Program-made: the position numbers and the translations under genes
Shown: piece by piece, positions 59,265-62,621 of the stretch
Numbering within the stretch: position 1 is the first letter of the stretch
How the letters are laid out: each line of letters opens with the position of its first letter
NCBI GenBank assembly: GCA_001899445.1
Contig: MPOA01000006.1
Span: forward strand, 310,001 to 374,000
Length of the DNA stretch: 64,000 bases
Direction of reading: 5' to 3'
Origin: Candidatus Desulfopertinax cowenii
GTDB taxonomy: Bacteria; Bacillota; Desulfotomaculia; Desulfotomaculales; Desulforudaceae
Notes under the pieces: generated by a model
What the model saw: the letters and a program-made list of their open reading frames with translations, nothing else
Told to the model about the DNA's origin: nothing
Database searches by the model: none

Positions 59265-60941
59265 GTGCTGCTTACGGGGCTACGCCGCCGTTACCGTTTA
59301 GTGAAACGCTACCGCCAAATCGCGCGGATTCTGACCAAGCACGGTTTTGACTACGTACTGAACCAGCTCGGCCTAGCCGAGTTGATCGCCCTGCCGCGGC
59401 GCGCCATCGGCCGCCCGCCCCGCGAAGTGTTGAAACGCTCTACCCCCGAAAGATTACGCCTGGTGCTCGAGGAACTGGGGCCAGCGTTTATCAAACTGGG
59501 CCAGATCCTCTCAACGCGGGGCGACCTCCTGGCCCCGGAGTACGTCGCGGAGCTGGAAAAACTACAGGACCACGTGCCCCCAGTCCCCGTGACTGAGATT
59601 AGCCGGGTGGTGGAAAGCGAGCTGGGACAACCCCTTGAAGCCTTATTCGCCTACTTTAATCCCCAGCCCCTCGCGGCCGCTTCCATTGCCCAGGTGCACC
59701 GGGCTACCATGCCGGACGGCACCGAGGTAGTGGTCAAAGTGCAGCGCCCCGGGGTCAAGGAACAGATCGACCTGGACCTCCAGATCCTGCAGAACATCGC
59801 CGGCCTGGCCGACCGGCACACGCCCTGGGGCCGAATCTACAGTTTCAGCGACATGGCCGCCGAGTTTCAGAACACCATCGTCGAGGAAACCGACTTCCGA
59901 ACCGAGGCCCGGCACGCAGATACCATCCGCCGCAACCTAGAGAACGACCCCCGGGTGCGCATCCCCCGGGTCCAGTGGTCCCACACCACCCAACGGGTGC
60001 TCACCCTGGAATACGTGGAGGGCATCAAGCTTTCCAACCTAGCGGCCTTGGACGCGGCCGGCATGAACCGCGCCCAGCTGGCCCGGACGCTGGCGGACGT
60101 ATTGCTGAAGCAGATGCTGATCGACGGCATCTTCCACGCCGACCCGCATCCGGGCAATATATCCGTGCTGCCCGGAGAACGCCTTGTGTTTCTTGACTTC
60201 GGGATCATCGGCCGCCTGCACCCCGAACACAAGGAATATTTGGGCCAAATAATGCTTGGGTTGATTCGCAAAAATGCCGATATGGTTATTAGGGCGGTGC
60301 TGCGCACGGGAGCGGTGCCCGAAACGGCGAACCTGAACGAACTGCGGCGCGACATCCAGCGGCTGCAGCAGAAATACTACGATGTCCCCCTTAACCAGAT
60401 CAACGTCTCGGAATCAATGCAGGATTTCCTGGTGCTCGCCTACCGCCACCGGGTACGGCTACCCTCCGAGCTGACCCTGCTGATTAAGGCGCTGATCACC
60501 GCCGACGGAGTCGTGCGCATGCTCGACCCGGAAATCAGTATCGTCGAGGTGGCCAAGCCCCTCGGTCGGCGTCTGATCGCCGACCGTTTCAGCGCCGCGC
60601 GCCTGCGCCGCCTGTGGCGCGAGAGCCTGCCGGAGTATGCGCACGTTGCCGCCCAGCTACCCTTTCAGGTACACGAGGTGTTGGAGCAGCTTTCCCGGGG
60701 CAACCTCCGCATCAGGCAGGAAAATCCAAGCCTGGACCGGCTGTCCCACAGCGTTTCAGTATTGATCAACCGGGCAATTCTCACCCTGCTGGTGATCGTC
60801 CTGTTCCTGGGGACAGTTCTGTTCGCCCAGCAGGAACTGTTCTTCTTCGGGATCGTGGCCGCCGCGGATTTGAGTTTTGTGGCGGGCACAGTGCTCGGCG
60901 CCTGGCTGGTCCTTAAAATCCTGCGCTCGGGACACTTGTAG
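59265..60941 (+). CDS. ubiB: ABC1/UbiB-family atypical kinase
   Basis: 558 residues from GTG 59265 (AAGGAGGGG upstream). ABC1-family core: LGPAFIKLGQILSTRGDLLAPEY (K-x-G-Q motif region), ASIAQVHRATMPDGTEVVVKVQRPGV (Ala-rich nucleotide loop and Lys), a VEETDFRTEARHADTI segment, and HADPHPGNISVL with FLDFGIIGRL. Two C-terminal membrane spans (about 505-555). Members support quinone biosynthesis; the substrate in a Firmicute is unknown. A perfect TATAAT (59224-59229) precedes it but no -35 box was found. It may share a transcript with motA. Confidence 0.88.
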   Translation: MLLTGLRRRYRLVKRYRQIARILTKHGFDYVLNQLGLAELIALPRRAIGRPPREVLKRSTPERLRLVLEELGPAFIKLGQILSTRGDLLAPEYVAELEKLQDHVPPVPVTEISRVVESELGQPLEALFAYFNPQPLAAASIAQVHRATMPDGTEVVVKVQRPGVKEQIDLDLQILQNIAGLADRHTPWGRIYSFSDMAAEFQNTIVEETDFRTEARHADTIRRNLENDPRVRIPRVQWSHTTQRVLTLEYVEGIKLSNLAALDAAGMNRAQLARTLADVLLKQMLIDGIFHADPHPGNISVLPGERLVFLDFGIIGRLHPEHKEYLGQIMLGLIRKNADMVIRAVLRTGAVPETANLNELRRDIQRLQQKYYDVPLNQINVSESMQDFLVLAYRHRVRLPSELTLLIKALITADGVVRMLDPEISIVEVAKPLGRRLIADRFSAARLRRLWRESLPEYAHVAAQLPFQVHEVLEQLSRGNLRIRQENPSLDRLSHSVSVLINRAILTLLVIVLFLGTVLFAQQELFFFGIVAAADLSFVAGTVLGAWLVLKILRSGHL

Positions 60942-61037
60942 GAGTTTGTTGCCCCCTGAAGAAGGAATTAGGGAAATAACAACCGAAGAGTTGCAGAGAG
61001 TTTTTTTGGAGAAACTTGTCAGACGGGGGCGATCCTT

Positions 61038-61838
61038 ATCGATCCGACTACCATCCTTGGTATTATTGCGGCCTTGTCCTTCGTGGTTCTCGGTTTTATT
61101 CTCAAACACGGGCACCTGGCCTCGCTGGTGGTGCCAGCAGCCATAGCCGTTGTTTTCGGCTGCACAATGAGCGCCGCCTTCGCCACCTTGAGCAAGTGGG
61201 ACATCCCCAACGTGTTCAAAAGTTTGCGTATGCTGGTGGGGCACAAAATAAAAAGCCCGACGGAGATGATCGAGGAGATCGTAGCCCTGGCGGAAAAGGC
61301 CCGACGGGAGGGGTTGCTCTACCTTGAAAACCACCTGGAGAACGTGGAAGACTCTTTTCTCCGCAAAGGTCTTCAACTAGTAATCGACGGTGCCGAACCG
61401 GAAGTGGTGAGCGGCGTATTGGAAACCGAAATATACGCCCTGGAGGAAAGACACCGGGTTTCCCACGAATTCTTCGAGTCCGCCGGTTCTTTCGCACCCA
61501 CCATGGGTATTGCCGGCGCCATTATGGGCCTGATCGTGGCCCTGGGCAACATTCAGGACCCGGACAGCCTCGGCCCGGCCATCGCCAGTGCCTTCGTGGC
61601 CACCCTTTACGGCGTGGTTTTCGCCTACTGTGTCTGTTTCCCCATCGCGTCCAAGCTGAAAACCCTCACCGCAAAAGAAATAATGCTCCGCAGGCTGATC
61701 CGGGAGGGTGTGGTCGCCCTGCAGTCCGGCAATAACCCGATTATTATCCGGGAACGCCTGAACGCCTATCTGAATCCGGATGCCCGCGCGGCGCTGGCGG
61801 CAGCGCAGGAGCAACAGCTTACCAAGGCCGCCGAATAA
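61038..61838 (+). CDS. motA: Flagellar motor stator protein MotA, non-canonical start codon likely
   Basis: Proton (or sodium) channel subunit of the stator. 266 residues if started at ATC 61038: IDPTTILGIIAALSFVVLGFILKHG aligns with the usual MotA start M-D-x-x-x-x-I-G-I-I and supplies TM1. GGGGGCG lies seven bases upstream. Between the in-frame stop TAG (60969) and TTG 61074 there is no ATG, GTG or TTG. TTG 61074 would delete half of TM1. Downstream features are normal: FATLSKWDIPNVFKSLRMLV, SHEFFESAGSFAPTMGIAGAIMGLIVALG (the TM3 channel Pro and Gly region) and SAFVATLYGVVFAYCVCFPIASKL. Only the start is odd. Confidence 0.85.
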   Translation: MDPTTILGIIAALSFVVLGFILKHGHLASLVVPAAIAVVFGCTMSAAFATLSKWDIPNVFKSLRMLVGHKIKSPTEMIEEIVALAEKARREGLLYLENHLENVEDSFLRKGLQLVIDGAEPEVVSGVLETEIYALEERHRVSHEFFESAGSFAPTMGIAGAIMGLIVALGNIQDPDSLGPAIASAFVATLYGVVFAYCVCFPIASKLKTLTAKEIMLRRLIREGVVALQSGNNPIIIRERLNAYLNPDARAALAAAQEQQLTKAAE

Positions 61839-61859: not shown

Positions 61860-62621
61860 GTGGGGAAAGGTAGCAACCGGGAAAAATGGGTCCTGCCTTA
61901 CGCCGACTTCGTTACCGTTCTGCTGTGTTTCTTCATTGTAATGTACAGCCTCAGCAGCGTGGATGCCGAAAAGTTCGCGGCGCTGGCGCGCGCGCTGCAG
62001 CACTCCCTGGGCGGTCGGGGCACCGTTCTGATCGAAGCGCCCGACGCGTCCATCGGCCCGGATAGTTACAACCCGATAGAACTGGACCGGGGAATATCCC
62101 AGGTCCACGACACCGCTTTTCTGGCCCAGATTGCTTCCGTACAGCAGCAGGTGCAGGAGTTGATGGACGAAGCCGGCCTGACCGCGCAAATCGAAATGTT
62201 CACCGAGGAAAGAGGACTGGTCATCAGTGTTCAGGACACGGTTTTATTCAGCAGCGGCTCGGCCAAACTCACGCCCCAGGCCAGGGAAGTCATGGACAAA
62301 CTGGGCTTGATTTTGCTGCAAACTCCGAACTACATCCGGATTGAGGGCCATACGGACAATGTACCGATTAATACGCCGCGCTTTTCCTCCAACTGGGAGC
62401 TTTCGGTGGCCCGGGCCACCAGCGTGGTGCAATACCTGATCGCCCGGCACAACTTCCCGCCCGAGCGTCTCTCGGCCACCGGCTATGGCGAGTACCGCCC
62501 CAAGGCCACCAACGCCACCGCCGAGGGCCGTCAGAAAAACCGCCGGGTGGATTTCGTGATTCTCAGCAGCCTGTATGAAAAATCCGAGCCCCAGGGCCAG
62601 CAGGACAAGCCGAACCCATAA
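61860..62621 (+). CDS. motB: Flagellar motor stator protein MotB
   Basis: Anchors the stator to peptidoglycan and holds the essential channel aspartate. 253 residues from GTG 61860. The single TM has WVLPYADFVTVLLCFFIVMYSLS, with the proton-accepting Asp at residue 16. An amphipathic plug region follows. The C-terminal OmpA-like domain has IEGHTDNVPINTPRFSSNWELSVARATSVVQYL and LSATGYGEYRPKATNATAEGRQKNRRVDFVIL. It lies 21 bp after motA. Confidence 0.94.
   Translation: MGKGSNREKWVLPYADFVTVLLCFFIVMYSLSSVDAEKFAALARALQHSLGGRGTVLIEAPDASIGPDSYNPIELDRGISQVHDTAFLAQIASVQQQVQELMDEAGLTAQIEMFTEERGLVISVQDTVLFSSGSAKLTPQAREVMDKLGLILLQTPNYIRIEGHTDNVPINTPRFSSNWELSVARATSVVQYLIARHNFPPERLSATGYGEYRPKATNATAEGRQKNRRVDFVILSSLYEKSEPQGQQDKPNP

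Follow-up and report, generated by a model that had tools for sequence, protein, structure and literature searches.

The motA locus in the window

The window, a stretch of 64,000 nucleotides, lies in contig C6 of the Candidatus Desulfopertinax cowenii genome, a metagenome bin of 1,778,734 bases in 6 contigs. It carries a motA gene, flanked by genes for a UbiB/AarF-like kinase and a MotB-like protein, with an ATC where a canonical start codon would be expected. The features of the locus are as follows.

59265 to 60941, + strand: UbiB/AarF-like kinase gene, the upstream neighbour of motA (TIGR01982, 472.8 bits; the cut-off of 487.55 is not reached)
60949 to 61146, + strand: overlapping frame from TTG 60949 (LPPEEGIREITTEELQRVF...), not conserved and probably not a gene
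61001 to 61007, + strand: T7 tract, missing at the aligned place in relatives
61023 to 61025, + strand: ACG, codon -5, a rival start (TTG there in 5/8 family genomes)
61025 to 61034, + strand: extended Shine-Dalgarno sequence GGGGGCGATC, predicted to pair with GGAUCACCUCC of 16S rRNA
61038 to 61040, + strand: putative ATC start codon, ATC in 8/8 family genomes
61038 to 61045, + strand: ATCGATCC, invariant in 8/8 genomes, synonymous sites included
61038 to 61838, + strand: motA coding sequence read from the ATC, 266 aa, stop TAA (NCBIfam PRK08124; Pfam MotA_N and MotA_ExbB)
61074 to 61076, + strand: TTG, the first canonical codon downstream of the ATC (codon 13), not conserved
61860 to 62621, + strand: motB-like gene with a putative GTG start, directly after motA in gene order

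Residues 2-255 of the product match positions 2-256 of the NCBIfam PRK08124 profile, which aligns residue 1 with profile position 1. Both the MotA N-terminal and MotA_ExbB domains are present and motB adjoins, placing the product in the MotA stator family; the best match to the NCBIfam MotA equivalog, at 260.9 bits, is under that model's cut-off of 340. A search of the whole genome for MotA_ExbB returned a single match, which is the motA locus. The gene is under purifying selection, with dN/dS of 0.04-0.19 in the 7 of 28 family pairs that were tested. The N-terminus of the neighbouring MotB (61860 in the window; motB of L006-L013 in the family) varies by genus, with Gly-rich or Arg-rich starts in relatives.

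The motA frame is open from an in-frame TAG at 60969-60971, after which it reads GGA AAT AAC ... ACG GGG GCG ATC CTT ATC GAT CCG. The 22 open codons before ATC 61038 include no ATG, GTG or TTG. The original prediction, that no such codon lies in frame between TAG 60969 and TTG 61074, was borne out by direct reading of the sequence, which also found GGGGGCG at 61025-61031; its coordinates for these landmarks and for the T7 tract (61001-61007) were likewise correct. A canonical start is absent within 20 codons upstream in all three genomes of the window's genus, and the five family genomes of the other two genera have TTG at codon -5.

Sixty-four frames of the window have matches in genome G001, G004 or G006, and 60 of them have their own in-frame ATG, GTG or TTG near or upstream of the point at which the conserved stretch begins. 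Twenty-one were flagged because their alignments lacked a canonical start column in common; most of these flags come from shifts in the alignment, and the frame has a canonical codon of its own close by. Only four frames have no canonical start; three run antisense to genes with ordinary starts or are shadow frames of such genes, and the fourth is motA, which is thus the sole such case among these 64 frames, a count that applies to the window and not genome-wide.

Conservation of the ATC and of the ribosome-binding region

The family was sampled through eight genomes in three genera, and a further 105 genomes represented the rest of the order. ATC GAT CC stands at the MotA start in all eight family genomes. 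Outside the family, a motA match was found in 81 genomes and the start region could be placed in 73 (69 plus 4 placed separately), using one motA copy each and leaving second copies out; G025, G050, G051, G067, G068, G069, G070 and G095 were left out of the placement. The aligned residue is encoded by ATG, GTG or TTG in 66 of the 73, and the other seven have ATG one codon later; ATC occurs at this position in none of the 73. The family and order-wide alignments thus confirm that ATC 61038 occupies the place of the homologues' Met, as had been predicted.

The conservation extends to synonymous sites. No other invariant run in the 804-nt motA alignment is as long as ATCGATCC (8 nt vs 5 for the next), and dS between genera is ~1.5 (L006-L008). 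Thirteen Ile columns are invariant among the eight MotA proteins; codon 1 is always ATC, and 11 of the other 12 vary in codon. Only 12 of 154 invariant degenerate columns use a single codon throughout, the first two codons of motA among them. Mean pairwise identity, anchored at the ATC, is 0.35 at -60 to -16 (where 1 of 45 bases is invariant), 0.97 at -13 to -5, 0.52 at -4 to -1, 1.00 at +1 to +8 and 0.71 at +9 to +60. Such a footprint is what one would expect around a site of initiation. A local hairpin, rather than the start codon itself, could partly account for the invariance of ATCGATCC.

All eight family genomes carry a strong, extended Shine-Dalgarno sequence at proper spacing. GGGGGCGAT, invariant at 8 of its 9 bases, lies at a fixed distance from the ATC, with 8 nt between the fifth G and the AUC. 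The 3' end of 16S rRNA was taken from G004, where it reads GGATCACCTCCTTTCT, and pairing of this end with GGGGGCGAU(C/U) is predicted through both GGGGG and GAU. The predicted pairing at -13 to -4 amounts to -11.8 to -13.6 kcal/mol in 8/8 genomes. In a slightly wider window it reaches -11.8 to -13.8 kcal/mol in all eight, a strength attained by 5 of the 69 other motA genes compared across the order; this comparison, like that of the folds below, used the 69 placed genes without the 4 placed separately. The sister L014 shows this layout too, with G5 and 8 nt before GTG. A 21-nt element, GGRGGNGATNNNNATCGATCC, occurs as one exact copy per family genome (8/8), at motA, and is absent from all 105 other genomes of the order.

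Two further observations concern the surrounding sequence. The pattern GGRGGNGATNNNNATC was found at 68 places in the eight family genomes, including the eight motA genes, and is far commoner than a reversed control pattern. A purine-rich block (approximately GAAGGAAYY), located at 60960-60990 in the window just past the end of ubiB, is found again in all eight family leaders ~70-120 nt before motA, with a small flanking stem in several of them.

Based on these alignments, we propose that the start codon shifted from AUG, GUG or UUG to AUC in or before the family ancestor and has been retained since. The eight genomes form one lineage, and hence stand for one or few evolutionary events. The lack of any reversion to a canonical codon (0/8) is odd for an initiator as poor as AUC, unless its weakness is itself selected.

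AUH starts in the order and competing readings of the motA start

The use of AUH codons in this order was examined in infC. Of 31 genomes searched, 28 yielded an infC match, each of which was placed (L047-L074); the start is ATT in 21, ATC in 5 and ATA in 2. It falls at the aligned codon in 27 and a codon later in one (L057), and a canonical in-frame codon is also present further upstream in 10 of the 28. Within the family, all seven genomes with a match start infC at ATT (6) or ATA (1), the eighth (G002, 89% complete) having no match to the IF3 gene. AUH starts are therefore used in the order to which motA of the window belongs. In the window genome, the infC ATT is followed directly by ATC, leaving the exact start ambiguous.

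There were 43 tRNA matches in the window genome, with three tRNA-Met(CAT) according to ARAGORN, and the tRNA set gave no sign of a changed initiator; an odd initiator tRNA was rejected as an explanation. ARAGORN did not find tRNA-Ile(GAT) in this genome and no 16S rRNA gene was found in the whole bin; the assembly probably lacks both the rRNA operon(s) and tRNA-Ile(GAT).

The readings that would remove the ATC altogether fare poorly. The window genome was binned from a metagenome, and an ATG might in principle have been misread as ATC, but an error of sequencing or assembly is next to impossible with the identical ATC in eight assemblies, including the single-contig genome of 2,349,476 bases (G004); the suggestion that resequencing might show ATG is thus very unlikely to be realized, since independent public assemblies agree. 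A shortened MotA starting at TTG 61074, the first canonical codon in the window's motA frame, is barely credible, as this TTG exists only in the window genome (the first canonical codon lies at codons 6 to 36 in the other seven), its predicted Shine-Dalgarno pairing is merely -3.1 kcal/mol, and the first 12 conserved residues would be lost. It had also been suggested that ribosomes reading the overlapping frame might slip into motA at the T7 tract. That frame exists as described, is preceded by AGGAG at TTG 60949, and contains TTTTTTG in the phase that a -1 shift requires. In relatives the T tract is missing at that place, stops break the upstream frame, and the leader is as poorly conserved as given above; the first 24 codons of the frame have no Pfam match. 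With neither upstream frame nor slippery site conserved, a programmed frameshift gene was rejected, and we regard slippage as having a negligible chance of being correct.

Two readings that keep the region intact deserve more weight, each of them improbable. Translation might begin five codons upstream, at UUG in the other two genera and at ACG in the genus of the window; MotA would then be about five residues longer. The reading frame is open at -5 in 8/8 genomes, with TTG there in five and ACG in three, and this reading is kept as a rival because those five do offer a canonical codon (TTG). We consider it unlikely, as the Shine-Dalgarno pairing predicted for codon -5 is weak (-1.7 to -8.1 kcal/mol, vs -11.8 to -13.8 for the ATC) and weakest, at -1.7 to -4.0 kcal/mol, in the genomes that do have TTG. 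A start at -5 would also put GGGGG within the coding region, codon -1 encodes Leu, Phe, Arg or Ser, bases -4 to -1 are unconserved, and the window's genus would need a non-canonical codon (ACG) anyway. The other reading sees an RNA switch as the main reason for the region's conservation, with AUC retained for pairing and serving as the start despite that. A hairpin, GGGCGAU-N4-AUCGAUCC, is predicted over the Shine-Dalgarno sequence and the start (CGAU-N4-AUCG closed with GGG/UCC), and it possibly melts at growth temperature. At 37 C, 7/8 genomes have a local fold of -3.8 to -4.1 kcal/mol, which weakens to about -0.4 to -0.5 at 60 C; -3.8 kcal/mol is reached by 3 of 69 other motA genes, and 2 of 100 column shuffles match the consensus fold. 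Against such a switch, the hairpin is weak and nearly lost at 60 C, RNAalifold found no compensatory changes in it among the eight family leaders, and each of the two sites that vary, CCA in G002 and GGGGGGG in G003, costs the consensus fold a base pair. The only other structure that RNAalifold predicted in the leader was a weak stem close to the stop codon of ubiB. A region kept chiefly for its RNA structure therefore seems about as doubtful to us as the upstream start.

Probable initiation at AUC and its significance

The proposal that motA starts at ATC 61038 is strongly supported by its conservation in 8/8 genomes, by the placement of the Shine-Dalgarno sequence and by the order-wide comparison. 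The sequence evidence behind it is that the window's genus has no canonical start, together with the conservation, the Shine-Dalgarno position and the AUH starts of infC; counting against it is the in-frame TTG five codons upstream in 5/8 family genomes. We infer that AUC is the codon actually used, and consider it highly probable that motA of this family is translated from AUC by the ordinary initiator tRNA (fMet). The extended Shine-Dalgarno sequence GGGGGCGAU would position and hold the ribosome, allowing the initiator tRNA to start at AUC, and the weak codon would result in less MotA being made.

Comparable starts have been described in other bacteria. In Staphylococcus aureus, infC (AUA), cvfC1 (AUU) and ccpN (AUA) have non-canonical starts with extended Shine-Dalgarno sequences (PMC13009471). 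The non-canonical starts of cvfC1, ccpN and citZ gave ~10% of AUG expression in poor medium, and that of ccpN gave up to 30% in rich medium (PMC13009471); by analogy with these measured Staphylococcus cases (~10%), MotA synthesis would be lowered by AUC. AUC is a poor initiator according to E. coli work cited in PMC13068326, and an ATC start of Listeria rnhC is reported there as experimentally confirmed. The ccpN (Staphylococcus and Bacillus) and cvfC1 (Staphylococcus) genes resemble motA in having a lineage-conserved non-canonical start with extended Shine-Dalgarno pairing, but are different genes with a different third base, and their starts were mapped by ribosome profiling, whereas that of motA is read from sequence (PMC13009471). 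Listeria rnhC shares with motA the AUC as a fixed start in a Firmicute, but is a ribonuclease gene (PMC13068326). In E. coli pcnB, an inefficient start codon limits the protein level, as proposed here for motA, although this is another gene in another phylum and the codon is AUU (cited in PMC9410913 and PMC13009471). Another parallel is infC, present in the same genomes and, like the family motA, combining an AUH start with a strong Shine-Dalgarno sequence and long-distance conservation. It differs in being autoregulated by its own product (PMC9410913), whereas for MotA, a membrane stator subunit, no connection with initiation is known.

AUH starts that are conserved and follow an extended Shine-Dalgarno sequence are thus already known, and motA appears to be a new and unexpected gene among them; no AUC-started motA was found in literature on AUC and other non-canonical starts, infC, motA and Firmicutes motility, screened mainly by title. 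Beyond infC, few bacterial genes are known whose AUH start is kept family-wide. Gene callers restricted to ATG, GTG and TTG would mis-start or truncate the family motA, and similar genes have therefore probably been overlooked elsewhere.

IF3 discriminates against AUH starts, and its gene was found in 7/8 family genomes. It is possible that IF3 tunes MotA synthesis in this way. As a tentative extension, which we think rather less probable than not, motA and infC may form an IF3-sensed pair in which the amount of stator tracks the IF3-to-ribosome ratio, since IF3 rejects the AUH codons with which the two genes begin; the start region may in addition act as a temperature-sensitive hairpin. The AUH-started stator gene suggests that motor dosage is restrained at translation initiation, and the conserved AUC suggests that these cells keep motor synthesis low through a weak start signal. 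If motA and infC are indeed sensed together by IF3, motor power would be geared to the translational state in energy-starved deep-subsurface cells.
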